Shown here: piece by piece, positions 4,595 to 38,695 of the stretch
Layout of the letters: each line of letters opens with the position of its first letter
Numbering within the stretch: the first letter of the stretch is position 1
NCBI RefSeq assembly: GCF_020991085.1
Contig: NZ_CP087720.1
Coordinates: 186,001-250,000 of the forward strand
Direction of reading: 5' to 3'
Length of the DNA: 64,000 nucleotides
From: Roseomonas sp. OT10
Lineage (GTDB): Bacteria; Pseudomonadota; Alphaproteobacteria; Acetobacterales; Acetobacteraceae
The notes under the pieces: model-generated
What the model was told of the DNA's origin: nothing
Database searches by the model: none
Seen by the model: only the letters and a program-made list of their open reading frames with translations
Made by a program: the position numbers and the translations under genes

Positions 4595-5785
4595 TCAAGA
4601 GCCGGACCGCTCCATTTTCCCTGGCCTGGATACCACGACCGCGCCTATGACCATCGAGAGCTGCTTAAGCCCTGCGATAAGCTTCTGGTGCTCTTCTACC
4701 CGCCGAGCCTCGTCCCACACGAACGGGATCAGCGATGTCCATCTCCGGTCTGTGGCGTACAGACTCGCGTCTGCAGCGATCTCCTCGATGATGTCCTGGA
4801 AGGATTTTCCTGGGCGCATGAACTTCACCTCCACCACAGTGCCGAGGCTGGGTATGGAGAGATCGACGCGAGGGTTTTTCTGCCCTACGGGTGACAGCGT
4901 TTCCTCATCGTTTAGATCAGGAAACAAAGGCGCCAGCACCGCCCAAAGCAGATTCTGAACGTGGTACTCATTCTCCACATCCCATTGCGTGATGTCCGAT
5001 CTCCGCGTCCTGGGGGCAGCTTCCCAGGTCCAGCGCTTAAACGAGCGCTGCACGCCCTCCAACACATGGAGTACATCGAGGGGGTCAAGGACCCCCATGC
5101 GCGCCGGTAGGTTGCGTTCGGTCAGCACGTTCAGCGCCCGTAGCAGCAATGCTGCTTCAGGTACTACTTCCTCGCCTGCGGCAAAGTGCAGGATGCGGTT
5201 CCAAGCTTCGTTGCAGCAGCGGTCGTCTGGACGACTGAGTAAAAGCTGCGAAAGGGCTACTCGTGCTTCGGGGAGCATCACAGCACTGTCCTGGCGCCCA
5301 GGAGCATCAATCAGGTGTGCTGCCGCGACGAAGAGCGATCGGTCCAGGGTTGCTAAATCCGGCGACGCTGCGCTCCTCACCACCAGATCTTTAAGCCAGC
5401 GTGCTTGAGAAGTACCGGCGTGGCGGCTAACGCCTAACGCGATGCCGAGCGCGGCGACGCCGTCTGCTTCGAGCGTGTATGGCTGATGCGGACGGAACCA
5501 TGCACGCTCACTCAACCACGCCAGACCATCGGACAAGGCGGGCTGGAAGCTATGCTCCAGATGTCCGGTCGCGGCCGCGTAGCCAAGGGCTGCCACGTCT
5601 CCGACGGACCGACCGCCGCCCGCGCCGAGGCTCGCGGCTGCAGCCCCGGGCAGTTCGCTCAATCGGTTCTGCTCATCCAGGAGCCAGGCTCGGAAAGCCT
5701 GCACATGAATGGCCGAGAATGGCGTCGGCTCGGCGGCCGCAATTAGGCCGGCCCTGATCTGGGGGATGGTGGGGCCGGCGCTCAC
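4595..5785 (-). CDS. PD-(D/E)XK nuclease partner of the Argonaute
   Basis: A 396-residue protein with a long helical N-terminal region and a C-terminal nuclease fold. The catalytic signature is VDLSIP (Asp about 308) followed by VVEVKF (Glu 319, Lys 321). The chosen start is GTG at 5785, because it overlaps the Argonaute stop (TTGTGA) and so implies translational coupling; the frame is open up to 5839 but would otherwise overlap 58 bp. Catalytically inactive long-B Argonautes are known to be paired with such nucleases in abortive-infection systems (BPAN type). Here the nuclease would be the effector set off by guide-target binding of the Argonaute. Because the Argonaute gene upstream is split by an IS, expression and control of this nuclease are probably lost or altered. 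The effector role is inferred from the neighbour and the motif. Confidence 0.8.
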   Translation of the reverse strand: MSAGPTIPQIRAGLIAAAEPTPFSAIHVQAFRAWLLDEQNRLSELPGAAAASLGAGGGRSVGDVAALGYAAATGHLEHSFQPALSDGLAWLSERAWFRPHQPYTLEADGVAALGIALGVSRHAGTSQARWLKDLVVRSAASPDLATLDRSLFVAAAHLIDAPGRQDSAVMLPEARVALSQLLLSRPDDRCCNEAWNRILHFAAGEEVVPEAALLLRALNVLTERNLPARMGVLDPLDVLHVLEGVQRSFKRWTWEAAPRTRRSDITQWDVENEYHVQNLLWAVLAPLFPDLNDEETLSPVGQKNPRVDLSIPSLGTVVEVKFMRPGKSFQDIIEEIAADASLYATDRRWTSLIPFVWDEARRVEEHQKLIAGLKQLSMVIGAVVVSRPGKMERSGS

Positions 5786-6756
5786 AAGAACCAAGGCCTG
5801 CGCATCACCGCGCCAACTACTGCGGTATCGGGGTCCCATCCCGGGGTACGCTCGAGGCCTGCGAGTTGCTTCGCAATTTCGTCGGCGTAGAGGAGTGTGA
5901 TCGGGAGCCTAGCTCGTTCGTAAGTACGCCAGGAGTGGCAGGCGAAATCCGATACCTGACGCGTCAGCGTTCGCATGTCGCGAAAGGTCGATTTCTCGTG
6001 CAGGCGGAGTAGCACCGGATCAGGGATGCCCTGCGACGCGGCTCTGATCTGATCCCGTCCGGTGAGGGAAAGGAGCCACTCGTGGTCGCTGAGTTCTACG
6101 GCCTGCCCACGCTCGGGCGCATAGGCACCCTTGCCAGTCGCTGAGGCGTGGTCGAACAGCGTGAATGGGTGGTCCTCGGCCACATGGAGGAAGGCGAACT
6201 TCACCCCACTCAGGCCCATGCTTTCCACAGCGGCAACCACGGCATCCGCAGTCTCTTGTCGCATCTGGGTGAAGGCATGAAAGACCAAGCGCACCGTGTC
6301 GCCCGCGCGCCAAGCCTCCTCTTGCCGTATGCGCTTGACCGCCTCGATGAGCGTGGCGCGCAGTGCCTCCGGGTAGCGGTCGAACGGTACTGCAGCCGTT
6401 CGGGCATCTAGTAGATAGTTACCCTGGCTAGAGAACACGGTCGTGATCCCGACGACCCGTTCCCCTGCACCTCGACGTCGCTCCTTGTGGGTATGAGATC
6501 CGAGGCCAAAGACAAGCTCGTGATCTGTCGAGGGCCGGGCCTTCAGCAGCCAAGGGGTACCGCCGAGCTTGGCGTAAGTGGCCAAGCTGACGTTTGCCAA
6601 AGCGCAGGCGTACTCGAAGTCGCCCATGGCCATCATCTCGGCGGAGAGTGCCTGCACTGGCACGTCGCGCCGCAGGAACGCAGCCTTCGCCCACCAGTAA
6701 GGGCTACTGGTGGCAGGACGATCCTTCCAGGATCGCTGGACCTGCACCAGGGCTAG
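5782..6756 (-). pseudogene. Long prokaryotic Argonaute, 3' part (end of MID, PIWI)
   Basis: This holds the 3' part of an Argonaute gene cut by IS1380. The MID 5'-phosphate pocket motif is present: YWWAK (Tyr 461 and Lys 465 of the rebuilt 765-residue protein), then Gln 476, then the conserved YAKLGGTPWLL. The PIWI domain follows, but the first catalytic Asp is replaced: the usual IGIDxS stretch reads FGLGSH (about 525-529), and the usual RDG-type motif reads VFHAFTQ. The protein therefore should bind but not slice. The C-terminus ends PWFL and overlaps the nuclease gene start by 4 bp. A GTG at 6747 could start a 321-residue fragment, but without the N and PAZ regions it is unlikely to work. 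Confidence 0.88.
6753..6756. repeat. Target duplication CTAG, left copy
   Basis: CTAG directly left of the IS1380 end, matching the copy at 8380-8383. Four-base duplications are normal for this IS family. Keeping one copy joins codons GAT-CTA-G to CC-CTG-GTG and restores the Argonaute frame. Confidence 0.9.
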
Positions 6757-8379
6757 CCGCTCTTATTCATCACGGGCCTACGGTGCGGCTGGCGGGCGTG
6801 GCGTAAGCTGCTGATTGCGTTTACGGACTTGGGTGTCGAGACCAATCCGCAGCAGCATCAGGCCGCGCCACACCCGCCATGGATGACGATACGACCGAGC
6901 CCTTCGGCTTTCCAGCGATCGGCCGCAAGAAGGTGGTCGCCGCCTTCGACGGCGGGCGGCTGACCTCGGATGGCGGGGTAATGCTGCTGGCCGCGGCCGA
7001 GCGACAGCTTGGCATTTGCGATCGGCTGGCGGCGCTGATCTTCGACCCGCGCGACCCGGCGCGGGTGGTCCACCCATTGGCCGACATCCTGCGAGCGCGG
7101 ATCCTGGCGATCGCCTGCGGCTATGAGGATGCCGACGACCTCGACCACCTGCGCCGGGATCCCGGCTTCAAGCTGGCCTGCGGTCGCCTGCCCGACAGCG
7201 GGCGGGACCTGTGCTCGCAGCCGACCATGTCGCGCTGGGAGAATGCGCCCTCCCTGCGCGAGGTGGTGCGCCTGATGCGGGCCATGGTGGACCTCTACTG
7301 CGCCAGCTACCCGAAGCCGCCCGCGGCGGTGACGTTGGACATCGACGACACGGTGGACGTGGTCCACGGGCGCCAACAGTTGTCGCTGTTCAACGCCCAC
7401 TACGACGAACGCTGCTTTCTGCCCATCCATGTCTACGACACCGCGACCTCCCGCCCGGTTATGGTGCTGCTGCGGCCGGGCAAGACCCCCTCCGGCGCGG
7501 AGATCCGGGGCCATCTCCGCCGTCTAGTCCGGCAAATCCGGCGCCACTGGCCGAGCACCCACATCACCCTGCGCGGCGATGGGCACTACGGCCGCCCGGA
7601 GGTGATGGCCTTCTGCGAGGCGGAGGGCATCGACTACGTCTTTGGCCTGCCAACCAATGCCGTGCTGCGGGCCGCCGTCGAGGACGCGGCCGACGACGTG
7701 CGGGTCCGCCGTGCCGAGGAGAATGCCCCGGTGCTGCGCCGCTATGCCGAGACCCACTATGGCGCCAAATCCTGGGGCAAGCAGCGTCGGGTGGTTGCCC
7801 GCATCGAGGCCAGCACCCAGGGCCTCGATATTCGCTTCGTGGTCACCAGCTTCACCCGCGGCAGCGCCGAGTGGGTCTATGACGCCCTATACTGCGCGCG
7901 GGGACAGGCGGAAAATCTGGTGAAGCTGCACAAGGCCCAACTCGCCTCCGATCGCACGTCTTGCCGCTCACCGCTGGCCAATCAGGTCCGTCTGGTCCTG
8001 CACACCGCCGCCTACTGGCTGCTGCTGACCCTGCGCGACCGCATTCCCACGACGCATGAGTTGGCGGCTGCCGAGTTCGCCACCCTCAGGCTACGCCTGC
8101 TCAAAGTGGCGGGCCGGGTCATCGAAACCGCCAGCCGGGTCCGCCTCGCCTTCGCCGCCGCCTGCCCGCATGCCGTGCTGTTCCGCGGCCTCGCCCGCAG
8201 CTTCCATCCGGCCGGACCATAAGCAACGGGGCTAGTGCCCCACCAATCCTCTCGCCCAGCAACTTCCAACGCCGCCCGTCAGGCCCAACCACCCCGCCGC
8301 AAGCGGATGCAGCCGCGTGCCGAACGCTCAAGTCAGCCTGCCAGGACGCCCTACGCTCCAACCCGGTGAATAGGACGGG
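6757..8379 (+). mobile_element. IS1380-family insertion sequence inside the Argonaute gene
   Basis: A 1623-bp element flanked by CTAG on both sides. Imperfect terminal repeats: left CCGCTCTTATTCATCACGGG; right end in reverse complement CCCGTCCTATTCACCGGG. It contains one transposase gene in the opposite direction to the Argonaute. The clean duplication and intact transposase point to a recent insertion. Confidence 0.9.
6879..8222 (+). CDS. IS1380-family DDE transposase
   Basis: A 447-residue transposase. Family features are the N-terminal SDGGVMLLAAAERQLG motif (about residues 30-45), the LDIDDTVDVVHG stretch carrying the first catalytic Asp (about 147-158), LRGDGHYG with the second Asp (about 228-235), and the C-terminal RGQAENLVKLHK motif with the Glu. 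Length is normal and no frameshift is seen. The start ATG at 6879 lies about 120 bp inside the left end. Confidence 0.95.
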   Translation: MDDDTTEPFGFPAIGRKKVVAAFDGGRLTSDGGVMLLAAAERQLGICDRLAALIFDPRDPARVVHPLADILRARILAIACGYEDADDLDHLRRDPGFKLACGRLPDSGRDLCSQPTMSRWENAPSLREVVRLMRAMVDLYCASYPKPPAAVTLDIDDTVDVVHGRQQLSLFNAHYDERCFLPIHVYDTATSRPVMVLLRPGKTPSGAEIRGHLRRLVRQIRRHWPSTHITLRGDGHYGRPEVMAFCEAEGIDYVFGLPTNAVLRAAVEDAADDVRVRRAEENAPVLRRYAETHYGAKSWGKQRRVVARIEASTQGLDIRFVVTSFTRGSAEWVYDALYCARGQAENLVKLHKAQLASDRTSCRSPLANQVRLVLHTAAYWLLLTLRDRIPTTHELAAAEFATLRLRLLKVAGRVIETASRVRLAFAAACPHAVLFRGLARSFHPAGP

Positions 8380-8383
8380 CTAG
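8380..8383. repeat. Target duplication CTAG, right copy
   Basis: CTAG directly right of the IS1380 end. It pairs with 6753-6756. Confidence 0.9.
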
Positions 8384-9706
8384 ATCCCATGGCTGGTCCC
8401 GAGTGGCGGCCGCAGACAGAGCGTTACGGGCGGCTTCAGCGTAGGCGTCAGCGCTGTCATCCTTGGCCTCGAAGAATTCAACTTGCGGCTTCTGAAGCCG
8501 GAAGCGGCCCAGCAGCCCCGTCGCATGGGGTACAAAGCCTTTGTGAGATTGAACTTCGGGGAGACCCTCAAGGAAGTGCGCGACCGTCTCTGCCATGGCA
8601 CCGCGCCGGCGTGCCTCGCAGATGACAGCAATCCTCGGCCGCTTTCGTTCAAAGGTCGCTCTATCGTAGGGCCCGGTCTTATCGAGCTGCCTCTGAGTCC
8701 AGTTGTCATTGCGAGAGCCGCTTGGGTCGAACGAGAACGTGGGCCGTTGGAACACCTCAGCTGGCGGAAATGGCACTGACTCCGCTTGGTCAAGTGGACT
8801 CTCAAACTGGAGAGGCACACCATCGGCGATCTGAAGGCCCGCACGTCCGAAGTAGCTCAGGGCGCGTTGAAGCGTCTCAAGGCTGGCCTTGCCTGCCCTC
8901 AGCTCCCCTTCGATCTCCTGCACCTCCTTGAGCACCCGCTCAGCCCGGCCCTGCATAAGCGCCTGCACGACCGCGTTGAAGTTGGCACGCGTGGGTTCAA
9001 GGAACGCGAACCCAAGGGCCATCTCCTCGGGTCCGCCGTCATGGTCGGCAAGTCTCAGGACTTTACCATCATTGGCAACCACGCGCCCAGCAAGTCGCAA
9101 GCGCCTGGCTACCTTCGGATCCGGGTTGTCCGTCCAAGTGGAAACGTAGTTCCCGATGAGCGGCATGCCGATCTCGTGCAACTGACCACAGTCGACCTCG
9201 ATCACGGTCCGGAGGCGGTTCCCGCAGGTCAGCACCACGTAGGGCTCCTCGCCGGGATGCTTGATGATCCGGGTCTCGAAGCGCAAGACGACACGCTTCT
9301 TCAGCCAGGGTGGCAGCCCGATGGAGGGCGGGATGACGTTCTCCTGCTTCGCCGTTTCGACGATAGGCGGACGTCGGCTGACCACCCGGTAAGCGCTGGG
9401 AAGGGTGAGGAGGCGGCGGAACACCGCCTCGCGGGTGAGTGTGGCGAGCAGCCGCATGTTGTCGGCGGCGGGCAGCTCCATCCGATGGCCAGGCAACTCG
9501 GCGCCAGGTTTGAGCGGCACGACAACCATGTCGTTCTCGCCGTAGCGAGTCGCGAAGACGTCCTGTGCCGGTCGGTCGAGGAGGTTATGGAGCTGTTCTC
9601 GGTTAAATGGGACCACCGCTGCAGGAATAGGCTGTCCAGGGCGAGCGAGCCGGAACCCGTTCAATGCCAGCACAGGTTCCTGACGTGCAGCGAATCGATC
9701 TGGCAT
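8380..9706 (-). pseudogene. Long prokaryotic Argonaute, 5' part (N, PAZ, start of MID)
   Basis: ATG at 9706. 442 native codons run to the IS junction; the frame then reads nine residues into the IS before stopping at 8351. It holds the N-terminal and PAZ-like lobes (LRFETRIIKHPGEEPYVVLT and following, about residues 140-260) and the first strands of MID (RPRIAVICEARRRG, about 355-370). Joined across the IS at CTAG it gives a single 765-residue Argonaute, a normal length for long-type pAgos. The gene lies upstream of and coupled to a PD-(D/E)XK nuclease. Long-B pAgos use small guides to detect invading plasmids or phage and trigger a partner effector. The assignment to the long-B clade is my inference from the missing catalytic Asp and the partner nuclease. 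Confidence 0.88.
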
Positions 9707-9879
9707 GGTGCAATTCTATCGGCTCGGCGGGTTCGTTCGCGATTCCGCCCTCAGGAAGGCTCCCACCTACGCCAAAATAGCAAGGTGCAACTTTTGATCG
9801 AGGGCTGATTACTGAGTGTAGGCGCTTTTGCAGCCCGCCGCTCTTCCTAGACGAGTAGACGAGCATGTCTGGTAGCCCC

Positions 9880-9908
9880 TTGAAAATGAGGCCCACCGAG
9901 GATATCTT
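9880..9908 (+). promoter_or_regulatory. Sigma-70-type promoter for a small RNA candidate
   Basis: TTGAAA at 9880-9885, a 17-bp spacer, then TATCTT at 9903-9908. Box match and spacing are near ideal for a housekeeping promoter and would start transcription near 9913-9916. It points away from the Argonaute gene. Confidence 0.6.
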
Positions 9909-9912
9909 ATGT

Positions 9913-10049
9913 CCTGCAGGGGAAGCCCTGCGGGCGACTTGTCCGGCCGCGTGTTTGGCAAGCGTCGTGGCCACCCGGAGGCCAAGAGCCCCGGTTGCCG
10001 GCCACCTTCTTCTGCCAAGCTTCGAGAGCCGCCTTCGGGCGGCTCTTTT
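9913..10049 (+). ncRNA. Small structured RNA candidate
   Basis: A transcript of about 135 nt is predicted between the promoter and a perfect terminator. Its 5' end folds into a 9-bp stem (9913-9921 with 9926-9934) closed by a GAAG loop. TTGGCA near 9955 can pair with TGCCAA near 10013, closing a middle domain. The only ORF (62 codons, start 9909) begins before the predicted transcript start, reads through the terminator and looks non-coding. I do not recognise an RNA family. A short leader peptide or a decayed gene remains possible. Confidence 0.45.
10025..10049 (+). terminator. Rho-independent terminator
   Basis: A perfect 9-bp stem AGAGCCGCC / GGCGGCTCT with a TTCG loop (10034-10037), followed by a T run (TTTT with the last stem base). 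The T run makes it a plus-strand terminator. It sits just beyond the stop of the convergent DUF3800 gene. Confidence 0.85.
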
Positions 10050-10050
10050 G

Positions 10051-10664
10051 CTATGGGATCTGGATCCCGTACCGTTCCCGCAGGCCAGTGGCGTTGAGCT
10101 CAGCGCCGACGATCCACTTCCGAGAATACGCCACCACGTCAGCCAACTGGAGCAGCCGCGAGGCAGACGAATCCAGCCGCGAAACCCGGTTCACGGCCCG
10201 GAACCGCCCGTCATTCCTCCGCGCCTTCCCGATCTCGGCTTCGAACGCCGGATGGTCGTATGGTGGTTCACGTCGGTGATCAGGTCGACGTTGCCGATGG
10301 TGTCGCGGCCGAGCACGTCCTGTTGGAAGCGCTTAAGCCCGATCTTCACGGTTTCGATCACCGCGTGAGCATAGAGCACCGGAGGCTCTCCACCGCGGGC
10401 CGGGATCTTCTGGTTGACGAGCACGAGCCGCCCTCGGGGCACTGCTGCCCAGAAACGCTGCAACAGGCTTTGGAGGTAGCTATCATCGAGCGCCGCCGCG
10501 TGAATCTCGTTCGCGCTAGGCTCCAGGAGATCGCTGAAGCATTTGTCCACGCGGCCGGCCTCACGCGCCAGCACGAGCACGCCCCCGAGATACAGGTCCC
10601 CGGCGCCGGCCGTGCCGTACTCATCGATAAAGCAGAGAACCTTCTTGTTGAGACCGGACGCCAT
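10051..10664 (-). pseudogene. DUF3800 family protein, frameshifted
   Basis: The 5' part (ATG 10664) begins with the DUF3800 signature LCFIDEYGTAGAG and stays open to 10191. The family's C-terminal part, SRLLQLADVVAYSRKWIVG, lies in another frame and ends at a stop at 10051-10053. The frame change is near 10255, where ITDVNHH should run on into YDHPAFEAEIG. Joined, the protein would be about 203 residues, close to the family size. DUF3800 proteins have an RNase H-like fold and are often found in defence and mobile regions. The gene starts 4 bp after the stop of the winged-helix gene upstream, so they form one operon. A sequencing error could also explain the shift. Confidence 0.75.
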
Positions 10665-10667
10665 GAC

Positions 10668-11207
10668 CTATCCCATAGTCGCGGCATCATTCTCTGCCGC
10701 TGCCGGAGGAGGGGTCCGTTTGGGTCGGAAGCCTGGGCGAGCCACGGCTTTTCGGCGTGCCTTATTCTCTTCCGCGACCTCGCGGAATGCCGGCTCCAGC
10801 TCTTTCAGCTTCGCGACCAAGCCCGACAGGTCGTACTCGTTGGAGATCTTGCCGCGGTTCAGGGCCCGCCGCTCAATCCGCCGCACGAAGCCTGATGCCT
10901 CCAGCTCGGCAATTCGACGCTGCACCTGCCGCTCGCTGAGGCTCAAGCGCTCTGCCAGGTCAGCCTTCTTCGGGAAGGGCTTCCGCCCTGCGTCCCACCA
11001 GAAGTCGGCCAGCTGCAGCAGCACCGCGAGCTGGGTCGGATCGAGCCCGAGCTTGCGCTGGGCGCGGAAGATCAGGGATGGCAGAATGCAGAAGCCCAGG
11101 TCCAGGACCTCCTGCCCCCACTTTTTTGTCGATGCTCGCGTCGGCTTCGTTTTCCCGCCCGCGGGTGGGGTGACACCCTCGGCTTCCGTGTTAGATTCAG
11201 TGCTCAT
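10668..11207 (-). CDS. Winged-helix DNA-binding protein
   Basis: A 179-residue protein with a central winged helix-turn-helix (ADLAERLSLSERQVQRRIAELEASGFVRR, about residues 80-108), like the DNA-binding part of plasmid replication or MarR-type regulators. The C-terminus is charged, with a Lys/Arg-rich tail. ATG at 11207 is preceded by AAGGAG; the frame is open to 11255 without a ribosome site. It is the first gene of a two-gene unit with the DUF3800 gene. It is likely a transcriptional regulator; target unknown. Confidence 0.7.
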   Translation of the reverse strand: MSTESNTEAEGVTPPAGGKTKPTRASTKKWGQEVLDLGFCILPSLIFRAQRKLGLDPTQLAVLLQLADFWWDAGRKPFPKKADLAERLSLSERQVQRRIAELEASGFVRRIERRALNRGKISNEYDLSGLVAKLKELEPAFREVAEENKARRKAVARPGFRPKRTPPPAAAENDAATMG

Positions 11208-11571
11208 CGCGCTCTCCTTGGGTGCCAAAATGCCCATGGAGAGCAAGCAGCTCAATGACCTCCGACCGGACGTTTTCGTCTCCTCCTACCAGTCGCAGGT
11301 GACCGGAAGTCTCGCGTCACTGGCGTCCAGACGTAAGTAGGACATACCGGCTAATCGGATGAACGGCGAAACTGATGAACGTAGGAACGGGGGATTACCG
11401 GTCGCAGATGTCCGGTCGGTTTGAGCAGAAGTCCGGCAGACATATTGGGGCGACCTCTGACATCCACGCCAGCCGCCGGACTGTCCTCGACGGCTGAGTT
11501 CATGGGCCCGGCTACCGTCTCGCGCGAATAGCCACAGGAGGCCAGTTCGCTCCGGCCGGTGGCCGCCCTGC
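11208..11571. other. Intergenic stretch, no supported gene
   Basis: One minus-strand frame (11351-11575) is open for 74 codons but has no family features. No terminator or RNA gene is seen. It must contain the promoter of the winged-helix gene and the 3' end of the kleisin operon. Confidence 0.4.
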
Positions 11572-12408
11572 TCACGCTCCGTAGTTTGCCCCTGGACGCG
11601 TATACAGGCGGATCGCCCCGAAGATCTCTTCCTGCACCATCTCTACCGCTCCGTTCCTGGCCAGCTCCAGCCCAGCCAGCAACGTGCTGGCGAGCGCCGC
11701 GCGGGCCTTCAGCGGCCTAGCCGGCTCCTCAGCCGGCAGTGGTGGGAGGAACAGAGCCAGGTCGCCACCCTGAGGATGGTGCCCTAGCACGGCGCGGATG
11801 TGCTCCAGGGCATCCGGGACTCTCCAGAGGTTCGGAATTGCGGGTCGGTAGGGCGGCGCTACTTCATCCTCCTGCCCTTCCCTCCCCTCCAGCATGACGA
11901 GGGTCGCCTCCAGGAACGCGACAAAGAGTTCCGCCTGTGGTTTTGGCGTCGCCCGCTCCTGATTGCCGCGCGCGAACACGTCCCAGCCGAGTTGCGGTCG
12001 TGCTGAGAGCCAGAAAGCTGCCGCCTTCATCGCAGCGAGTTCTTCCAACTGCCCGAGCCGTCGGTCCACCTCTGCCGCGGCCTCTTCGGCGGCCTGCAGA
12101 CTGGCGGGGGCGAGCAGCTGTGCCCGGAGCCGCAAGAGTTCGCTCGCCATCACCAGCCAGTCGGCCCGGCGCTCCAACCGGGCGAGACTGCCCTCCAGCG
12201 CGGCCACCAGCTGGTCGGTCAGAGGGATGATTGACAGTCGGCCGAGGTCGAGCTGGTGCCGGCGCACCATCTCCAGGAGAAAGTCGAGCGGCCCCTCGAA
12301 GCCCTCCACGCTGAGGTGAGGCATATCGGCCGGCCGAGGTCGCCCATCGGCGGCCTTCTCTTCCTGCCAGGGATCCTCAACCGCGGCCGCGGCGTCGGCG
12401 TCAGCCAC
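11572..12408 (-). CDS. ScpA-like kleisin (copy 1)
   Basis: A 278-residue protein with the N-terminal ScpA/kleisin domain. FEGPLDFLLEMVRRHQLDLG (about residues 36-55) matches the conserved ScpA helix that binds the SMC neck, and a long helical segment rich in Leu, Ala and Glu follows. ScpA normally joins SMC and ScpB in chromosome condensation; neither is seen here. GTG at 12408 is chosen because it overlaps the stop of the upstream gene by 8 bp, and the second copy at 63194 has the same arrangement. It is last in an antitoxin-toxin-recombinase-unknown-ScpA operon. A role in plasmid architecture or recombination is inference. Confidence 0.82.
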   Translation of the reverse strand: MADADAAAAVEDPWQEEKAADGRPRPADMPHLSVEGFEGPLDFLLEMVRRHQLDLGRLSIIPLTDQLVAALEGSLARLERRADWLVMASELLRLRAQLLAPASLQAAEEAAAEVDRRLGQLEELAAMKAAAFWLSARPQLGWDVFARGNQERATPKPQAELFVAFLEATLVMLEGREGQEDEVAPPYRPAIPNLWRVPDALEHIRAVLGHHPQGGDLALFLPPLPAEEPARPLKARAALASTLLAGLELARNGAVEMVQEEIFGAIRLYTRPGANYGA

Positions 12409-13138
12409 GACGCGCCCTGGCCGACCGGGGTGGTTTGTCCCGATTGTGCTTCTTGTCCCGAATGCCCTGCTTGTGCTGGATGGGCGCGATGGATCTGCGC
12501 GTGGGCTCATCGTCGTCGCCGCCCGCGTAGTCCGGCTGCAGGGTGAAGCTCAGGGCCGGCCAATTTCGGCGGAGTCGGCGCAGTGCCTGCCAGGGCGACC
12601 AGTCCGCTGACCAGAACTCGACGCGCAGCTCCGCCATCCGCCGCTTCCGGCCGTCGAGGGTGGGCTCCAGCTCCCGCACATGCCGCAGCGGGCGTGTCGT
12701 GCCCCAATGCGTCCAGAGCCAGATGCGGCTGTCTGGGTCGTCGGGCCCGAGACGCAGGATTCCGGGTGGGGCCGGCAGCAGGCGGTGCAAGTCGAAGGGG
12801 CAGCTATGGTCCGTGCCGATGCGGGCGATCGCCCGCTGGTGGTTGGCCGCCGCGGCATCCCGCAGCCGCCGGGCCAGGATCCGCGCGCCCTGCAGGCTGA
12901 TCGCCCGCTCACCCTCGGCTGGCGCCACGAGTGACAGAAACCAGTCCTCCTCCATGCCGTCGAAGTCCAGCACCCAGGGGATCACCCCTGCCCCGGCGGC
13001 TGCCGCCCGGAAGCGACCCATCTCCTCCGTCGGCCCGGTCACCACCAGCACATTGCGCAGCCAGTCGGTGTGCGCCGACGCCGGGAGCGCCGTCAGGTCC
13101 GGCGCGTCGTGGGCGGTCGGGGCAAGAGGGGCGGGCAT
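12401..13138 (-). CDS. Conserved unknown protein between recombinase and ScpA (copy 1)
   Basis: A 245-residue protein I do not recognise. It is strongly conserved with the paralogue at 62500-63201: shared blocks include GVIPWVLDFDGMEEDWFLSL (about residues 50-69), GARILARRLRDAAAANHQRA (about 83-102), CPFDLHRLLPAPPGILRLGP (about 112-131) and a Trp-rich EFWSADWSPWQALRRLRR block. A basic C-terminal tail ends in RARRG. No membrane segment or known catalytic motif is visible. It starts 10 bp after the recombinase stop and overlaps scpA. Repeated linkage to both genes suggests the three act together. Confidence 0.7.
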   Translation of the reverse strand: MPAPLAPTAHDAPDLTALPASAHTDWLRNVLVVTGPTEEMGRFRAAAAGAGVIPWVLDFDGMEEDWFLSLVAPAEGERAISLQGARILARRLRDAAAANHQRAIARIGTDHSCPFDLHRLLPAPPGILRLGPDDPDSRIWLWTHWGTTRPLRHVRELEPTLDGRKRRMAELRVEFWSADWSPWQALRRLRRNWPALSFTLQPDYAGGDDDEPTRRSIAPIQHKQGIRDKKHNRDKPPRSARARRG

Positions 13139-13148
13139 CCCCCCTGCC

Positions 13149-14246
13149 CTACAGGTCGAGCAGTCGGGCCGGGCTGTCCTGGGTGATCTTGGCCCGGCGG
13201 CGATAGCCTTGCGTGGTGGCGATGCTCTTCTGGCGGGTGTGGTGCATCACCTGCTCGTCCAGCGCGCCCTTCAGATAGGCCTCGGTGATGAAGCCGGCGC
13301 GCAGCCCGTGCGGCGAGAGGCGCTCGGTCTCATCCACGGTGAGGCTGGCGAGCTCGGCCCGCTTGCGCAGGATCCGCCACACGCTCTTGCTGTCGAGCCG
13401 TCCCTCGAGCACGCCGCGACCGCTGAGCCCGCGGAACACCGCGCCGTACTCGATCCGCGCCCGCCGCAGCCACTCCTCCATTGCCCGAACCGGGCAGGTC
13501 AGGGGATTGAGTCCCCGCGGGATGCCGACCGTGGCCCCCTCCCCTTCCTGGTCCCGCTTGGAGCGCAGGATCTGCAAGGTCATGCCCTCGGGCGTGAAGC
13601 GCAGCGCCTCGCGGTCGAGGGCCACCAGCTCGGAGCGTCGCAGCGCTCCTGCGAAGCCGGTCAGCAGCAGCGCCTTGTCGCGCAGGCCCGGCAGGTCGGT
13701 GCCGCAGGCGGCGAGCAGGCGCTTCACCTCGGCCGAGGTCAGGGCGGCGGCGGGCCGGGCCGGCTTGCCGTGGCTGGCGAGGATGCCGCGCAAGGTCATG
13801 CGGATGGCGGGGTGCCCGGGCTCGATCGGGTGACCGGTGCGCCGGTGCATCTCGGCGATCGCGGCGAGCCGGCGGCGCAGGCCGGAGCGGCCGAGCTGGC
13901 CGGCGAGGCTCGCCAGATACCCCGCGATCACCAGCGGCTCGGCCGGCAGCGGCGACACGCCACCCGCCTCGCACCAAGCCGAGAACAGGCTCCAGTCGGT
14001 CGCGTAGGCGCGGCGGGTGTTTTCGGACAGCGCCTTGCCGGCATAGCCGGACGCCTTGGCGACCGCTTCCCCGACGGGGCCGGAGAGTAGCGCCAGCACG
14101 GCGGCGGGGCTCTGGCCGGCGGCGGCGCGCAGCAGCGGCGTAGCCAGCACCGGGCGGTGCTCCGGCGGCAGCACCTCGCCTTCACGCGCCGACAACCTCG
14201 GATCCGCCGAACCCTCGGGCGGGGCGGCTTTATGGCCCTGGTTCAA
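13149..14246 (-). CDS. Tyrosine recombinase (copy 1)
   Basis: About 365 residues with the complete tyrosine-recombinase signature: Arg I in GALRRSELVALD, the HGLRAGF box (His-x-x-Arg), and the C-terminal HHTRQKSIATTQGY with the nucleophilic Tyr. The N-terminal SAM-like domain lies at about residues 50-140. The frame is open to 14846, but that extension only shadows the toxin-antitoxin genes. The TTG at 14246 overlaps the toxin stop (TTGA) and gives a length close to the second copy (351), so I use it; the exact start is uncertain. It likely resolves plasmid multimers or moves a local cassette. Confidence 0.85.
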   Translation of the reverse strand: MNQGHKAAPPEGSADPRLSAREGEVLPPEHRPVLATPLLRAAAGQSPAAVLALLSGPVGEAVAKASGYAGKALSENTRRAYATDWSLFSAWCEAGGVSPLPAEPLVIAGYLASLAGQLGRSGLRRRLAAIAEMHRRTGHPIEPGHPAIRMTLRGILASHGKPARPAAALTSAEVKRLLAACGTDLPGLRDKALLLTGFAGALRRSELVALDREALRFTPEGMTLQILRSKRDQEGEGATVGIPRGLNPLTCPVRAMEEWLRRARIEYGAVFRGLSGRGVLEGRLDSKSVWRILRKRAELASLTVDETERLSPHGLRAGFITEAYLKGALDEQVMHHTRQKSIATTQGYRRRAKITQDSPARLLDL

Positions 14247-14602
14247 GACCCGCCTGCCTCGGTCCTGGCGAGCTGGCTGAACCCGAACACGCCGAAGAAC
14301 AGCGCCGCCTGTGTCGCCAGCCACTCCGCCGGCGCCTCGCCCAGCCTGCCGGCAATGACGGAGCGGTCGAGCGTCGCCAGCTTGTCGAAGCGCACTACGG
14401 ACGGGACCTTCAGGCCGGTGCCCGCACCGGCCGCGAGCGGCGCCATGTCCGGTCCGCTGCGCGGCACCGAGGTGATGAAGCACACCACCAAGTCGGTGCG
14501 CCGGTCGTTGTCGCGCGACACCACCAGGGCCGGGCGCCGCTTGTCGCCGGACAGGTCGGTGAACGGGAAGCGGGTCAGGACGATGCTGCCGAAGGCGAAC
14601 AT
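14243..14602 (-). CDS. MazF/PemK-family toxin
   Basis: A 119-residue PemK/MazF endoribonuclease-type toxin. Family features are GSIVLTRFPFTDLSGDKRRP at residues 5-24, VVCFITSVPRS (about 38-48) and the C-terminal region with VRFDKLATLD. MazF toxins cut mRNA and are held by a cognate antitoxin. The ATG follows the antitoxin stop directly (TAGATG) and the stop overlaps the TTG of the recombinase, so it sits inside one operon. It probably stabilises the plasmid or the recombinase module. Confidence 0.88.
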   Translation of the reverse strand: MFAFGSIVLTRFPFTDLSGDKRRPALVVSRDNDRRTDLVVCFITSVPRSGPDMAPLAAGAGTGLKVPSVVRFDKLATLDRSVIAGRLGEAPAEWLATQAALFFGVFGFSQLARTEAGGS

Positions 14603-14821
14603 CTAACGCCCGGGCTTGGCCAGGTCGTTGTCGGTGTAGAGGTCCGGCTCGTCCTCGAGCCAGTCGAGCGCCCTGCCATCCTGGGCGATCCTGGCCATGG
14701 GCAGGCTCTCGGTGTCGGCGAGTTCCACCACGACGTGGACGCGGGTGCTTCCCGAGATGCCGCGTCGCGCGAGCTCGGCCGGAATGTCGCCGGCTTGGGC
14801 GTCGAGAACAATCTGCTGCAC
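14603..14821 (-). CDS. Antitoxin of the MazF-type toxin
   Basis: A 72-residue acidic protein directly upstream of the toxin. The N-terminus (LDAQAGDIPAELARRGI) and the acidic C-terminus (WLEDEPDLYTDNDLAKPGR) fit a small antitoxin whose C-terminal half wraps the toxin. ATG at 14821 is preceded by GGAGG (complement of CCTCC at 14828-14832). It is first in the operon and probably autoregulates with the toxin. The assignment rests mainly on position and size. Confidence 0.75.
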   Translation of the reverse strand: MQQIVLDAQAGDIPAELARRGISGSTRVHVVVELADTESLPMARIAQDGRALDWLEDEPDLYTDNDLAKPGR

Positions 14822-15212
14822 GGGTCACCTCCTTGCTGGCCAACACCCGGCCACCACGGTCCGGACCGCCTTCCTAACACGGCCGGGGCAGCGCCGGTCA
14901 TTGCACGCCCAGTCTACCGCAGGCAGCCAAAATAGGGCAATCGGCGTTCTCTTACTGTTAAATCCGATAATGACAGGTTATCGGGCGCGGCGGAGCGGTA
15001 ACCTTTTGATATTTGGTGCGGCGTGCCTGCAGGAGTTGCCTCCTCCGGACCGCGATGCGCGATGAGCCTGCCTTAAGGCAGGGCCGAGCGCGTTCATTTC
15101 ATCGCTTCCGGTTTGAACCGGCGGCCACATCGGAAGGAACGATCAGGAGGTGCCGCGATGTCGGGAAGGGTCCCGAGCTACGAAAGCCAGCTGGAGACCT
15201 CGAGTTAGAGGC
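14822..15212. other. Upstream region of the toxin-antitoxin operon
   Basis: It contains an inverted repeat at 14964-14984. On the plus strand an AGGAGG followed by ATG at 15158 opens a 16-codon ORF (MSGRVPSYESQLETSS) ending at 15208. This could be a short peptide or a gene start cut by the transposon inserted at 15213. No other gene is supported. Confidence 0.4.
14964..14984. repeat. Inverted repeat CCGATAA-N7-TTATCGG
   Basis: Perfect 7-bp arms (14964-14970 and 14978-14984) around TGACAGG, about 140 bp upstream of the antitoxin start. It is unusually AT-rich for this DNA. It could be an operator or a recombinase half-site pair. Confidence 0.5.
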
Positions 15213-26272: not shown

Positions 26273-28126
26273 ATGCTGAACGACGACATTATCCCCGGCG
26301 AAACCTCCGGGACCGCGCCCGACGACTCTGCCCTCGACTGGTCCTCCGATGCGCCGCGTGGTGGCCGGGCGGTCATGGGCCGCATCCTGAAGGAGAAGGC
26401 GTCGGTCCCGCTCTTCTTCGCGCAGACCCTCGTCCAGTCGCTCCGCGACGTTGGCTACGACCACACGACCTCCGCCCTCTGCGAGCACGTCGACAACGCG
26501 ATCCAGGCCGGCGCGAAGGAGGTCCGCGTCCTCTTCCGCCAGACGGGGAAGAAGGGCGAGTACCGGATTGACGCGGCGGTCTACGACGACGGGCGCGGCA
26601 TGTCCCCGTCTGTCCTGAAAGTCGCGACCTCCTTCGGCGGCTCGCTCAACTTCAACAACCGCAAGGGCATCGGGCGGTTCGGGATGGGCATGAAGACTGC
26701 GGCGCTGAGCCTCAGCCCCGTGATGGAGCTCTACTCCTGGCAGGAGGCGGGCGCCTTCTACAACATGACCCTCGACGTGGAGGCGATCGGGAAGGAGCGG
26801 GCCAACCTCGTCCAGCTTCCCGATCCCACGCTCATGACCGAGCTCCCGGACGAGGTCGCCGACCTCTTCCTCAAGCCGATGTCGTTCCCGTCGGACCGGT
26901 CGGAGCAGCAGCTCCTGGCCGAGCCGGGCGAGGATCTCGCCGATCGCCTCGGCCGCTCGGGAACCATCGTCTACATGCCGGAATGCGACCGGCTGACCTA
27001 CGCGAAGGCTCAGACGCTCGTGGACCACGCGACGAAGGAGATGGCGCGGGTGTACCGCCGCGCGATCGGTGCTGGCCTCCGCCTCTTCGTGAACAACCGG
27101 CGCGTGGAGGCGTCGGACCCGACCTACTCGATGCCGAACGCGCGGCACGCCCGCCTCGACATCTCGCCGAAGCAGAGCCGCCTCATTCTCCCGAAGCAGG
27201 TCGACATCAAGCTCCACGAGAACGGGTCGGAGACCGTACCCGTCACGGTGAAGATCTTCCGCCTGCCGATTGAGGAGTGGTCCAAGCTCGACCGGAAGAC
27301 GCAGCGAAACGACCTCCGCATCTTCGACGGCTACACCGTATCCATCCTGCGGAACGGGCGGGAGGTGTTCGCGGGGCCGATGCCGAGGCTCACGACGCGG
27401 CACAGCGTCACGAACTGGTACCGTATCCAAATCGACATTCCCGGCGAGCTCGACGAGGCCTTCGGCATCGCCTCGAACAAGCAGGGCGTGCGGATGAAGG
27501 GCTACGTCGAGGACGCGATCAAGGACGCGATCGGCGGCGAGATCTCGCGCATCAACGACGAGATCAAGCGCTTCCAGGCCGAGATGGCGGCGGCCCGCTC
27601 CCCGGCGAAGCCGACGACGAGCGAGGCGAAGGCAGCCGAGGCCGACCCGTTCCAGCGCACCCAGATGGCGTCCCTCTCGCCAGAGGAGGAAGCCCAGCTC
27701 GAGGAGAACCTCCGCGGCCTCGCCTTGACGCTGCGCCGCGACGGCGAGACGGACGATGAGGCCTTCGAGCGGGTGAAGGCATCTCCCTACATCATCGTCT
27801 TCCGCCACGACGAGTATTGGCCGTTCTACGACGTGCAGCAGCGCTTCGGCCGGACCATCCTCACCCTCAACACGGCCCACCCCTTCTTCACGCAGCTCTA
27901 CGACCCCATCAGCAAGATGGGCGTGGCGGCGGAGGCGGAGGACACGCCGGGGGGGGCCGCCCCACCGGCGGAGCAGAGCGGCCCCATCGTGGCGCTCGAC
28001 CTCCTGCTCCTCTCTCTCGCGCGGACGCAGGGGCGCCTGGCCGGGACTGGCGATGACGCGAAGAAGGTCCTCGACCTGCTGCGGCGCGAGTGGTCCGACA
28101 CCTACCGGGTGCAGATGACGGCCTGA
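26273..28126 (+). CDS. GHKL (Hsp90/MORC-type) ATPase
   Basis: 617 residues with a Bergerat ATP-binding fold at the N-terminus: N-box SALCEHVDNAIQAGAKEVRV (about residues 67-86), G1 box DDGRGMSP (about 104-111) and G2 box KGIGRFGMGMKTAALS (about 128-143). A transducer-like domain follows, then a coiled-coil segment (about 415-445) and a unique C-terminal domain. Proteins of this type dimerise on ATP binding and often gate a partner effector. The next genes on the same strand are an HTH protein and a DUF4917 protein, so they may form one defence unit. GGAG lies about 12 bp before the ATG. Confidence 0.85.
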   Translation: MLNDDIIPGETSGTAPDDSALDWSSDAPRGGRAVMGRILKEKASVPLFFAQTLVQSLRDVGYDHTTSALCEHVDNAIQAGAKEVRVLFRQTGKKGEYRIDAAVYDDGRGMSPSVLKVATSFGGSLNFNNRKGIGRFGMGMKTAALSLSPVMELYSWQEAGAFYNMTLDVEAIGKERANLVQLPDPTLMTELPDEVADLFLKPMSFPSDRSEQQLLAEPGEDLADRLGRSGTIVYMPECDRLTYAKAQTLVDHATKEMARVYRRAIGAGLRLFVNNRRVEASDPTYSMPNARHARLDISPKQSRLILPKQVDIKLHENGSETVPVTVKIFRLPIEEWSKLDRKTQRNDLRIFDGYTVSILRNGREVFAGPMPRLTTRHSVTNWYRIQIDIPGELDEAFGIASNKQGVRMKGYVEDAIKDAIGGEISRINDEIKRFQAEMAAARSPAKPTTSEAKAAEADPFQRTQMASLSPEEEAQLEENLRGLALTLRRDGETDDEAFERVKASPYIIVFRHDEYWPFYDVQQRFGRTILTLNTAHPFFTQLYDPISKMGVAAEAEDTPGGAAPPAEQSGPIVALDLLLLSLARTQGRLAGTGDDAKKVLDLLRREWSDTYRVQMTA

Positions 28127-28338
28127 GCGCCGGGGGCGGGGATGACCATCCCCGCCCCTTGCGCGAGTGGAACGTGCGATTAGTATCGAGGACGGGTCGA
28201 AGGTCTTGATGCGGTCCCGCATCCCCTCCCCTCCGGGCACAGCGTCCTGGGGTGGAGGAGCGGGGAAGCCGACATGAAGGCCGACGTCCCGGTCACCCTG
28301 CGCGCCGACAGTGGCCGCACAGAACGAGGGTTTGGACG

Positions 28339-28782
28339 ATGGCGGAGATCCCGCATCCCTGGCGTGCCTATGCGCGCCTTCAGCAACAGGTCGGACAGAG
28401 CCGCCGCGCCGACGCGCGGGCCTGGGCCGTCGAGGCCGGCCTCGATCACCTCCTCGGAGTGCCGGCCGGAGCGGCGGAGGGTGACGACGTCGCCCGCGCC
28501 GTTTCGACCGCGCGCCGGCGCGAGGCGCACCGCGGCGGGGCCCTGCGGCGCCATGCAGAGGTCTGGAGCGGCCCCCGGCACCCGGAGACTGCGATCCACG
28601 CCCGCCTGACGCTCGAAGCTATCCGGAGCCGCCTGACAGGGTCGGAGTGGGACGTCCTCTGCGATGTCGGAGCCGGGCGGAGCTACGACGAGATCGCGGA
28701 GGCGCGGGGCGGCACCCCCGGGGGCTGCCGCATCCGGGTCCTCCGCCTCCGGCGAACCCTCGCCGTGCGGGAGGCCGCGTGA
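28339..28782 (+). CDS. HTH protein resembling sigma factor region 4
   Basis: 147 residues. The C-terminal third, LTGSEWDVLCDVGAGRSYDEIAEARGGTPGG and on, looks like the sigma region 4 / LuxR-type helix-turn-helix (about residues 97-140). The N-terminal part is helical with no motif. ATG at 28339 sits after GGACG and fits the conserved part; the open frame back to 28252 is discarded. The stop overlaps the ATG of the next gene by one base (TGATG), so the two are co-translated. It is probably a regulator or adaptor of the DUF4917 protein. Confidence 0.6.
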   Translation: MAEIPHPWRAYARLQQQVGQSRRADARAWAVEAGLDHLLGVPAGAAEGDDVARAVSTARRREAHRGGALRRHAEVWSGPRHPETAIHARLTLEAIRSRLTGSEWDVLCDVGAGRSYDEIAEARGGTPGGCRIRVLRLRRTLAVREAA

Positions 28783-29798
28783 TGACTGAGGTGATGACGT
28801 TCGCGGACGCCCTGGGGCGCTCCGACCCGGGCAAGCGCAAGCTCCTCCTCGGCAACGGCTTCAGCATCGCGTGGCGGGCGACGGCCTTCACCTACCGCTC
28901 GCTTCTCGAGGCCGCGGACCTACCGCGGCTGCCCCGCGCGAAGGCGGTGTTCGACGCCCTCGGAACCTCCGACTTCGAGGAGGTGATCCGCTCCCTGCTG
29001 AGTGCAGCGCGGATCACCCCGGCTTTCGGGTCGGCCGGCGCCGCGATGGCGGAGGAGATGCGGGAGGATGCGGAAGCGCTGAAGGGCATCCTCGTCGAGG
29101 CGATAGCGAGCCGACATCCCGACCGCCCACAGGCTGTCGGTGACGCCGCCTTCGCGGCGTGTCGTGCCTTCCTTCGACACTTCGGCTGCTACTACACCCT
29201 GAACTACGACCTCCTTCTCTACTGGGCCCTGATGCACGATGAGGCGGACGGCGCCGTCCTGCCGCGGAACGACGGCTTTGTGCATCCCGACGGTGAGGGA
29301 GAGACGGAGTACGTGGTCTGGGAGGGCGGTGGTGATCAGGATGTCCACTTCCTTCACGGTGCGCTTCACCTCCTCGACGCCGGCGCCGAGCTACAGAAGC
29401 GAACATGGATCCGGACGTCGGTGCCGCTGATGGACCAAGTGCGGGAAGCGCTGGATCAGGAGCGCTACCCACTCTTCGTCGCGGAGGGTGAAAGCCGGCA
29501 AAAACTTTCCCGCATCCAGCATCACGGCTACCTCAGCCGCGCGCTGCGGAGCTTTGGCAGCATCGGCGGCGACCTCTTCATCTACGGGCACTCGCTCGCG
29601 CCGAACGACGAACACGTGCTGCGCAAGATCGAGCGCGGGAAGGTAAAGCGGCTCTTCGTCAGCCTCTACGGAGACCCCTCGTCGCCCGACAACGTCCGTA
29701 TCATCCGGCGCGCGATGGAGATGTCGGAGCGGCGTGGCGGCCGGAAACCGCTGGAGGTGCAGTTCTACGATGCAGCTTCCGCCCAGGTCTGGGGGTGA
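28782..29798 (+). CDS. DUF4917 SIR2-like protein
   Basis: 338 residues of the DUF4917 family, which shares the SIR2-like NAD-binding fold. LLLGNGFSIAW (about residues 21-31) is the nucleotide-binding loop. YTLNYDLLLYW (about 140-150), DVHFLHGALHLLD (about 186-198) with the key His, and LFIYGHSLAPNDEHVLRKI (about 264-282) complete the fold. SIR2-like proteins in defence systems destroy NAD+ after infection is sensed. It is coupled to the HTH gene. Its 3' end overlaps the convergent serine recombinase gene by 34 bp. An effector role with the upstream GHKL ATPase is inferred. Confidence 0.75.
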   Translation: MTEVMTFADALGRSDPGKRKLLLGNGFSIAWRATAFTYRSLLEAADLPRLPRAKAVFDALGTSDFEEVIRSLLSAARITPAFGSAGAAMAEEMREDAEALKGILVEAIASRHPDRPQAVGDAAFAACRAFLRHFGCYYTLNYDLLLYWALMHDEADGAVLPRNDGFVHPDGEGETEYVVWEGGGDQDVHFLHGALHLLDAGAELQKRTWIRTSVPLMDQVREALDQERYPLFVAEGESRQKLSRIQHHGYLSRALRSFGSIGGDLFIYGHSLAPNDEHVLRKIERGKVKRLFVSLYGDPSSPDNVRIIRRAMEMSERRGGRKPLEVQFYDAASAQVWG

Positions 29799-30508
29799 TG
29801 CCGTGGACCTGGTCCTTGGCTGGCACGGTTCAGCACGCGCCTGACCTGCCAAGGCCGCCACCCCTCCCCGCCTCGTGGCGTGCGCACGCCGCGGGCGGTG
29901 AGGGCGTCCGCGAGTTCCTGCAAGGTGATGGCCCCTGCCCTCCTCGCGGCCTCGACGTAGGGCAGCACCTCCGCCGCGCGCCGCGCCGCCTCAGCCGACC
30001 ACGCCGCGCGCGCATCGGCGGCGGTGGCCGTGTCGCCGGGCTTGAGGCGCGGGTTGCCGAGCCGCACTCCTCGTGCCTTCGCGGCAGCCAGCGCCGCCTT
30101 CGTGCGTGCCGAGGTGGCGTGTGCCTCCTCCTCCGCGACGAGGGCCATGACGCCGATCGTGAGGCGATTAGCATAGGGCATGTCGGCCGCGACGAACTCG
30201 ACGCCGGCCTTCTCTAGCCCCAGCAGGAAGTGGGCGTCGCGGGCGAGGCGGTCGAGCTTTGCGATCAGCAGCACGGCGCGCCGCAGGCGGCATTCGGCCA
30301 GGGCGAGGGCGAGCTGCGGCCGGTCTCCCTTCCTGCCGCTCTCGACCTCCTCGAAAGCGGCGGTGACGGTGCCGCCGCATCCCGCCGCGTGTCGGGCAAC
30401 GGCCTCGCGCTGGGCGTCGAGGCCGAGACCCGATCTGCCCTGCTTGTCGGTCGAGACCCGGTAGTAGGCGACGAAGCGCGGCCCGGCGGGGGCGGGAGAG
30501 GGTGCCAT
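29765..30508 (-). CDS. Serine recombinase (resolvase/invertase type)
   Basis: 247 residues. The N-terminal resolvase domain has FVAYYRVSTDKQGRSGLGLD (about residues 12-31) with the catalytic Ser, then LIAKLDRLARDAHFLLGL and the FVAADMPYANRLTIGVMALVAEEE block, and the C-terminal part has LQELADALTARGVRTPRG as a DNA-binding element. It is related to site-specific DNA invertases often found on plasmids. An IS5 element lies 24 bp upstream of its start and has probably removed or replaced its promoter. Confidence 0.85.
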   Translation of the reverse strand: MAPSPAPAGPRFVAYYRVSTDKQGRSGLGLDAQREAVARHAAGCGGTVTAAFEEVESGRKGDRPQLALALAECRLRRAVLLIAKLDRLARDAHFLLGLEKAGVEFVAADMPYANRLTIGVMALVAEEEAHATSARTKAALAAAKARGVRLGNPRLKPGDTATAADARAAWSAEAARRAAEVLPYVEAARRAGAITLQELADALTARGVRTPRGGEGWRPWQVRRVLNRASQGPGPRHHPQTWAEAAS

Positions 30509-30529
30509 CGCCCGTGAAGGTGCCCTGGA

Positions 30530-31339
30530 TTAGGCTCTACGGACAAGGTTATGTGCCAGGCGCCAGTTGATGAGCGCCGCGGCCAAGCAGGCGAAGGCGC
30601 GGAAGCTTGCATGCGTCTTGTCCAGGCGCAGGCTCATGCGGCGGAAGTCCTTCAGGCGGTTGAACGCGTTCTCGACCAGGTGCCGGGTCCGGTACAGGGC
30701 CTCGTCGTAGGCGTGCCGGACCACCCTGTTGCGCCTGGGCGGCACGCACACGCCGATGCCGCGGCCATGCCAGTGCCCGCGCAAGGTGTCCGTGTCGTAG
30801 GCCCTGTCACCGACCACGAACACGGGTTGCAGCCCCTCGGTGAGCGCCCCGGCGTGGCGACAGTCGGCCTGCTGGCCCGGCGTGACCAGCAGGCGGCGCA
30901 CGAAGCCCAGGCCGTCCACCGCGTGATGGACCTTGCTGGTCAGCCCGCCCCTGCTGCGGCCGATGCCCTCCTCGCCTCCACCACGGGCGCCTGTGCTGGT
31001 GCGGTGGCACTTCACGCTGGTGCTGTCCACGTGCAGCACGTCCGGCGCCGCCCGGGGCTGCGAGCTCTGGAACAGGCGCTCGAAGACGCCCTTCCTGGCC
31101 CAGCGCCGGAAGCGCCTGCGGGCTGCGTCCGCAGACGGCACCAAGCAGCCCAGCTCCGCCCAGCTGCAGCCCTGGCGCAGCACCAGGAAGCAAGCCCCCA
31201 CGAACCGGCGCAAGGCGTCGGGGTCGTGCAGGTGCATGTATGGCTCCGCCCGCAGGGCCGGCAGCATGCGTTGCCACACCCCATCCCCGATGACATGCTC
31301 CTTCACGCCCAGGCCCCATGTGATGCTCGCAACACACAC
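30530..31339 (-). CDS. IS5-family transposase
   Basis: 269 residues. DDE signature: VLHVDSTSVKCHR (first Asp, about residues 100-112), VVGDRAYDTDTLRG (second Asp, about 174-187) and the C-terminal YRTRHLVENAFNRLKDFRRM motif with the Glu. The stop codon TAA is completed by the TA target duplication outside the IS end, a known economy of this group. No frameshift is seen, unlike the two-frame layout of many IS427 members. Confidence 0.93.
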   Translation of the reverse strand: MCVASITWGLGVKEHVIGDGVWQRMLPALRAEPYMHLHDPDALRRFVGACFLVLRQGCSWAELGCLVPSADAARRRFRRWARKGVFERLFQSSQPRAAPDVLHVDSTSVKCHRTSTGARGGGEEGIGRSRGGLTSKVHHAVDGLGFVRRLLVTPGQQADCRHAGALTEGLQPVFVVGDRAYDTDTLRGHWHGRGIGVCVPPRRNRVVRHAYDEALYRTRHLVENAFNRLKDFRRMSLRLDKTHASFRAFACLAAALINWRLAHNLVRRA

Positions 31340-31416: not shown

Positions 31417-31520
31417 TAGACGAATTCACAATCTAAAACGACCGTTTGAGGAATCGTGAACTGGCCCCCGAACTCACCGGATGGCATGATGGACTCCACT
31501 GCTGGCCGGAAGAGGGGGCA

Positions 31521-38685: not shown

Positions 38686-38695
38686 GCGGTTCCTC

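Follow-up and report, generated by a model that had tools for sequence, protein, structure and literature searches.

A BPAN Argonaute-nuclease operon on a plasmid-like Roseomonas contig, very probably inactivated recently by a CTAG-targeting IS1380 element

Organization of the interrupted operon

The DNA analysed here, referred to below as the window, is a stretch of 64,000 nucleotides from Roseomonas sp. OT10 (contig NZ_CP087720.1, positions 186,001 to 250,000) in which a gene for a long prokaryotic Argonaute (pAgo) is split by an insertion sequence (IS) of the IS1380 family and followed by a nuclease gene (Table 1). The locus lies on a 286-kb plasmid-like contig, which is separate, counts 286,493 bases and has a ParA-type gene. 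The 5′ half of the pAgo gene is listed as an open reading frame (ORF) of 451 amino acids that continues for 10 codons within the IS (to 8351). Counting only Argonaute codons, and by arithmetic on the separate halves rather than by joining them, the gene has 441 + 325 = 766 codons, corresponding to 765 amino acids and a stop. The 3′ half has a GTG start at 6747 that would give a product of 321 amino acids, and the first 58 bases of the nuclease gene are shared with the end of the pAgo gene.

Identity of the Argonaute and the nuclease

The two pAgo halves and the nuclease were searched as separate pieces. Each half alone has pAgo_II (724 positions) as its best-matching PADLOC profile, the N-terminal half with an E-value of 3e-85 over positions 2-404 and the C-terminal half with 1.1e-139 over positions 404-724, ranges that meet at the IS insertion point. 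EcAgo (PDB 23wq), the pAgo of the Escherichia coli system EcBPAN, matches the halves at 2.6e-29 and 2.7e-74, respectively. It is the best PDB match of the C-terminal half, followed by RsAgo (~2e-48) and AfAgo (1e-11), with all other argonautes in the PDB at E 2e-4 or worse. The NCBIfam model for RsAgo, NF052569, is matched more weakly, the halves scoring 64.5 and 200.5 bits versus an equivalog cut-off of 700 bits. In Pfam, the C-terminal half matches Piwi (PF02171) alone, at 30.2 bits with a cut-off of 28.9. A second PADLOC profile, PDLC02436 (460 positions), has a span that suggests a MID-PIWI model; it aligns with the N-terminal half from residue 319 (profile positions 10-125) and resumes at position 125 in the C-terminal half. 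With this match continuing across the halves, the cut seems to fall inside MID and not at a domain border, and the N-terminal half, with domain names following the family, would consist of N, L1, PAZ-type and L2 regions, probably together with the beginning of MID.

The motif VFGLGSH, which we take to contain the first catalytic PIWI residue, has no Asp at that position, as in EcAgo, and the protein is accordingly predicted to be a catalytically inactive long-B Argonaute. Residues that would hold the guide 5′-end are kept. Counted from base 6753, Y19, K23, Q34 and K62 of the C-terminal half have the same spacing as the pocket for the guide 5′-phosphate described for RsAgo (PDB 5awh, 6d8a), the second-best PDB relative, as Y463, K467, Q478 and K506 in a passage of PMC6299218, and the four are invariant in a six-sequence alignment that includes the window copy. 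The IS is inserted upstream of this entire pocket, which remains on the C-terminal side.

The nuclease matches the PADLOC model Aga_Helical-REase (2.7e-121), the EcBPAN nuclease EcbAgaN (PDB 23wq; 5.5e-44) and Pfam DpnII-MboI (172 bits); in NCBIfam nothing matches it at E up to 1. Its residues D326 and E337-V-K339 align with the D-EVK motif of EcbAgaN, mutation of which abolishes activity according to the passages of PMC10620215, where the BPAN layout is likewise given as pAgo first and nuclease second. By these likenesses to EcAgo and EcbAgaN, with the long-B pAgo gene preceding that of a PD-(D/E)XK DNase that keeps D-EVK, the locus is classified as a BPAN system (long-B pAgo plus bAgaN), a known type. 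It differs from EcBPAN in that its pAgo gene is IS-split. Because the IS1380 interrupts the pAgo frame, the window locus is an inactivated BPAN member.

The IS1380 element and its target site

The transposase scores 422.5 bits with NF033539 (cut-off 180), and the element resembles other members of the IS1380 family, which include ISEcp1 and ISPme1 (PMC9330008), in its NF033539/DDE_Tnp_1_4 transposase, short inverted ends, here imperfect, and 4-bp direct repeat. A second copy, 100% identical, is present on the same contig (G000:C2:81928-83550), and further near-identical copies were found in another genome (G266, 100%) and in R. mucosa TT14 (99.8%), each between CTAG repeats. This IS1380 has therefore been mobile recently. 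Target sites were inspected for the window element and nine further copies. All four near-identical copies (window, L003, L005, L107) are flanked by CTAG on both sides, a regularity that may set this element apart within its family. Among three copies at 82-88% identity, two have CTAG on both sides and the third has CTAA; in the three at 73-75% the left flank reads TTAG, and the placement of the right ends is unreliable. CTAG is rare in the window, with 36 occurrences versus ~186 expected from base composition, and the CTAG flanks therefore reflect a target preference of this IS1380.

The original prediction had read the two minus-strand frames as halves of one long pAgo with an inactive PIWI and a conserved guide-binding Tyr/Lys/Gln, split by an IS1380 with a CTAG duplication and coupled to a downstream PD-(D/E)XK effector nuclease. 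The profile, PDB and residue matches above agree with it throughout, although the pAgo profile was matched by the halves separately rather than by a rebuilt protein.

An intact relative and a differently broken one

A search of 397 genomes of the family with the C-terminal half returned matches in ten, four of them weak (E ~1e-4, 27-30% identity). Three matches have 99-100% identity, namely the genome of origin and those of strains U14-5 (G102) and E05 (G205). The genome of origin yielded one match each with the Piwi profile and the C-terminal half, and no second intact copy was found in it. In E05 (contig NZ_JASIRT010000023.1, stretch L019) there is an uninterrupted Argonaute of 765 amino acids (8602..10899) and a nuclease of 414 amino acids (10842..12086), the lengths read from the window; the E05 Argonaute matches pAgo_II with 768 bits over residues 14-765. 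This natural copy makes any joining of the window halves unnecessary as a test of the predicted 765-residue protein, and that length, proposed originally from the split gene, is borne out by it as well as by the codon count.

The window and E05 pAgo genes differ at 16 of 2,295 bases, 3 of the differences being nonsynonymous: 7 in the 441 codons of the N-terminal half (6 synonymous, 1 nonsynonymous) and 9 in 324 codons of the C-terminal half (7 synonymous, 2 nonsynonymous). The nuclease genes differ at 16 of 1,242 bases (12 synonymous, 4 nonsynonymous). Both halves and the nuclease are equal in length to their E05 counterparts with no frame-breaking change, as had been predicted for the pAgo halves. 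The pattern of differences indicates that purifying selection acted on the window pAgo almost up to the break, and that this copy was inactivated recently.

Strain U14-5 (R. gilardii) belongs to the same genus as the window strain and carries its copy on plasmid 1 (NZ_CP015585.1), where the annotation at the locus is Piwi domain-containing protein. Four shared pieces are 99.6-100% identical, and the window differs from U14-5 by 3 bases in 1,425 coding bases, all synonymous. At the place of the IS1380, U14-5 and E05 share an identical run of 60 bases containing a single CTAG, an empty site. The U14-5 remnant, although near-identical and without the IS1380, is broken elsewhere, by IS66, IS3 and an IS6-type truncation (Table 1), breaks that look like ordinary IS-driven decay. 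E05 shares one flank with the window (8377-15193, 95.65%) and the other with U14-5 (2.8 kb, 94.9%); from these shared flanks we infer that E05 has the older arrangement and that the window and U14-5 have each lost one side.

The ORF upstream of the Argonaute encodes 157 amino acids in the window (10191-10664) and 204 in E05 (L019, 7643-8257), with a different C-terminus, which points to a minor frameshift in the window ORF.

BPAN loci in other genomes

A survey was made of the best 80 of 114 related places in genome contigs, each of which had to contain a matchable C-terminal half, a requirement by which breaks in that half are undercounted. In 77 of the 80, one of three bAgaN-type nucleases is matched downstream (E up to 1e-3). 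At 72 loci the pAgo frame has 680 or more open codons without touching the stretch end, and at three (L058, L062, L075) it runs to such an end; at the other five it is short without reaching an end. One of these five (L057) has an IS within the pAgo. Two, both from metagenome-assembled genomes (L042, L095), have a continuous one-frame match despite their short open frames, consistent with internal stops or errors in the sequence. Of the remaining two, L079 is without a matching N-terminal part and L087 starts close to the end of a contig. In this sample, then, IS breaks of BPAN genes are recurrent yet rare. The interrupted gene at L057 (3306-6996) is a BPAN Argonaute of Oculatella sp. LEGE 06141 split by a DDE_Tnp_1 element, unrelated to IS1380, that has 14-bp inverted ends and 9-bp repeats.

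In a tree of 30 C-terminal halves, 28 from the 80 loci together with those of the window and U14-5, the window groups with U14-5 and E05 (support 100/98). A wider set of seven rows (100/100) adds Brevundimonas, Pseudotabrizicola, Methylobacterium and R. populi. Three separate BPAN loci (L050, L052, L073), each with an Argonaute frame open for 730 amino acids and a downstream nuclease, are present on one contig, JAHDXS010000001.1, of an alphaproteobacterial metagenome-assembled genome.

State of the locus

We consider it very probable that this plasmid-like contig carries a BPAN abortive-infection operon, inactivated recently when a CTAG-targeting IS1380 landed in its pAgo gene. EcBPAN, as the passages of PMC10620215 describe it, binds small 5′-phosphate RNAs, recognises DNA targets and, through its nuclease, destroys the genome. 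An intact Roseomonas pair would, by analogy, work in the same way, the inactive pAgo loading small 5′-phosphate RNA guides, recognising single-stranded DNA of an invader and switching on bAgaN, which would then degrade cellular DNA. After insertion of the IS1380 at CTAG the pAgo cannot be made whole and, because the cut precedes the guide-binding pocket, neither guide loading nor activation is expected to work. A scan for sigma-70 consensus sites, which is weak evidence, found no minus-strand promoter-like site at 6600-10100; with no such site and no whole pAgo, the nuclease is probably not expressed together with pAgo. The nuclease frame is whole, but the gene sits behind the IS and begins within the 3′ end of the broken gene, and EcbAgaN alone has hardly any effect on viability (PMC10620215), so the locus should be silent; its likely state is 'off'. 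For ISPme1, passages of PMC9330008 report a strong promoter directed outward as well as mobilisation of DNA adjacent to the 3′ end. Transcription of the nuclease from a promoter of this kind is unlikely here, because if it too points out of the 3′ end it would face 9706, antisense to the N-terminal half and away from the nuclease.

Several observations weigh against this interpretation. At E up to 1, Pfam has no match in the N-terminal half; the intact E05 protein itself falls just below the Pfam Piwi cut-off (26.5 versus 28.9 bits). The phmmer match between the window bAgaN and EcbAgaN is confined to nuclease residues 219-409, ~191 residues. The two pAgo halves and the nuclease remain clean frames; with no decay visible after the break, 'recent' is the only bound on the insertion's age. 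The promoter scan covers sigma-70 consensus sites only, and loss of nuclease expression is accordingly put as probable; activity of a Roseomonas BPAN is predicted from its sequence and from EcBPAN.

The original prediction offered two readings of the insertion, recent silencing or phase variation. The few differences from E05 and U14-5 support recent silencing. A phase-variable switch would require the IS1380 to excise exactly between its CTAG repeats, toggling the suicide system within a population. The pAgo frames on either side are indeed intact, and CTAG stands on both sides of all near-identical copies and of two of the three at 82-88%; moreover, IS1380 transposases have been used as an outgroup for piggyBac (PMC12732532), which leaves its 4-bp TTAA site footprint-free (PMC7351741). 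A 4-bp repeat is, however, equally the outcome of plain insertion, three distant copies have TTAG and not CTAG as their left flank, and precise excision of an IS1380 element is not described in the passages of PMC9330008 and PMC12732532. No IS-free allele was seen in the one consensus genome of this strain, and the IS-free relatives E05 and U14-5 are other strains that most simply represent the pre-insertion state. Phase variation has no positive evidence, was rejected as the principal explanation and is very unlikely. Slightly less likely again is the extension of this idea to plasmid-borne bet-hedging, in which clean, piggyBac-like exit would leave the BPAN armed again in a minority of cells and reversibly inactive in most. 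Among the literature titles and abstract openings listed, none deals with pAgo genes broken by IS elements and none with reversible IS inactivation of defence. Inactivation might instead be selected. EcBPAN kills cells carrying certain plasmids (PMC10620215), and if loss were favoured because BPAN kills plasmid-receiving cells, IS breaks would be fixed repeatedly. Two near-identical copies with different breaks, those of the window and U14-5, fit such a history, as does the IS-split pAgo of the distant Oculatella system. Against this, the IS load is high on both replicons: 8 of the 48 Pfam-scanned window proteins are transposases or pieces thereof, and 13 of the 28 annotated features in a 31-kb stretch of U14-5 belong to transposase, TnpB or integrase-core genes. 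An IS in pAgo was seen at a single one of the 80 surveyed loci, though these had to have a matchable C-terminal half. With transposase genes this dense, chance decay suffices and selection need not be invoked. The present data do not separate selection from drift; selection for loss was rejected as a demonstrated cause and we regard it as unlikely.

Two further explanations carry next to no weight. The fragments might be made separately and assemble into a working Argonaute, as Archaeoglobus fulgidus Ago forms a heterodimer with an N-L1-L2 protein (PMC10954474), and the C-terminal half does have a GTG start of its own. But the cut seems to lie within MID, the promoter scan, weak evidence, is negative for the minus strand of the region, and U14-5 has no insertion at this point, so the split layout is not common to relatives; a split functional Argonaute was rejected for the first and last of these reasons and has an almost negligible probability. 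Misplacement of the IS by the assembler, for which an identical second copy on the same contig would give occasion, is just as improbable, given CTAG repeats on both sides, different flanks at each IS copy and a genome of three contigs with completeness given as 100. Inactivation by a recent IS1380 insertion remains the preferred explanation, and the window and its relatives look like ordinary loss of a defence system.

The three copies form a natural series for one pAgo suicide system, from intact (E05) through IS1380-split (window) to multiply IS-broken (U14-5), and show quick loss to IS elements of a sequence still marked by purifying selection. E05 provides a well-defined intact pair with which an alphaproteobacterial BPAN can be tested, and the window IS1380 is a defined element with which clean excision of IS1380 can be examined.

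Neighbouring genes

The window has a second defence cluster at 26273-39829, which also includes a resolvase and an IS4/5-type transposase (Table 1).

Table 1. Features of the split BPAN locus, sites of the U14-5 breaks and genes of the second defence cluster, in window positions
Feature	Position	Strand	Evidence or remark
bAgaN nuclease, 414 aa, PD-(D/E)XK	4595..5839	-	Aga_Helical-REase, EcbAgaN, DpnII-MboI
3′ half of pAgo gene	5782..6756	-	325 codons including stop; PADLOC pAgo_II, EcAgo, PF02171
CTAG repeat, left of IS	6753..6756	.	4-bp direct repeat
IS1380-family element, 1,623 bp, imperfect inverted ends	6757..8379	+	NF033539; CTAG on both sides
IS1380 transposase, 447 aa, open frame	6879..8222	+	NF033539; DDE_Tnp_1_4, 549 bits
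CTAG repeat, right of IS	8380..8383	.	single CTAG at this spot in U14-5 (L004) and E05 (L019)
5′ half of long-B pAgo gene	8384..9706	-	441 codons, stop-free; PADLOC pAgo_II, EcAgo match
U14-5: IS66 in nuclease	5259-5266		8-bp repeat
U14-5: IS3 in pAgo	8838-8840		3-bp repeat
U14-5: homology end beside IS6-family element	9041		IS6-type truncation
ATPase with partial MzaB match	26273-28126
DUF4917/PDC-S21 protein	28647-29798
C5 methylase	32787-33872
Protein with DrmB match in C-terminal part	33938-35650
DISARM-like DrmA	35647-38685
Sigma-70-like protein matching MzaA	38696-39829

Genes for a C5 methylase, a HEPN protein and a GmrSD_N/NsnA-like protein follow one another at 45559-48481, a possible further defence operon. 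A PemK-like gene (14243-14602) and a PIN-domain gene (60122-60544) probably encode toxins of toxin-antitoxin pairs. At 57956-58729, a kdpA piece (profile positions 35-237 of 548) adjoins an rve transposase and is apparently a truncated potassium-transport gene.

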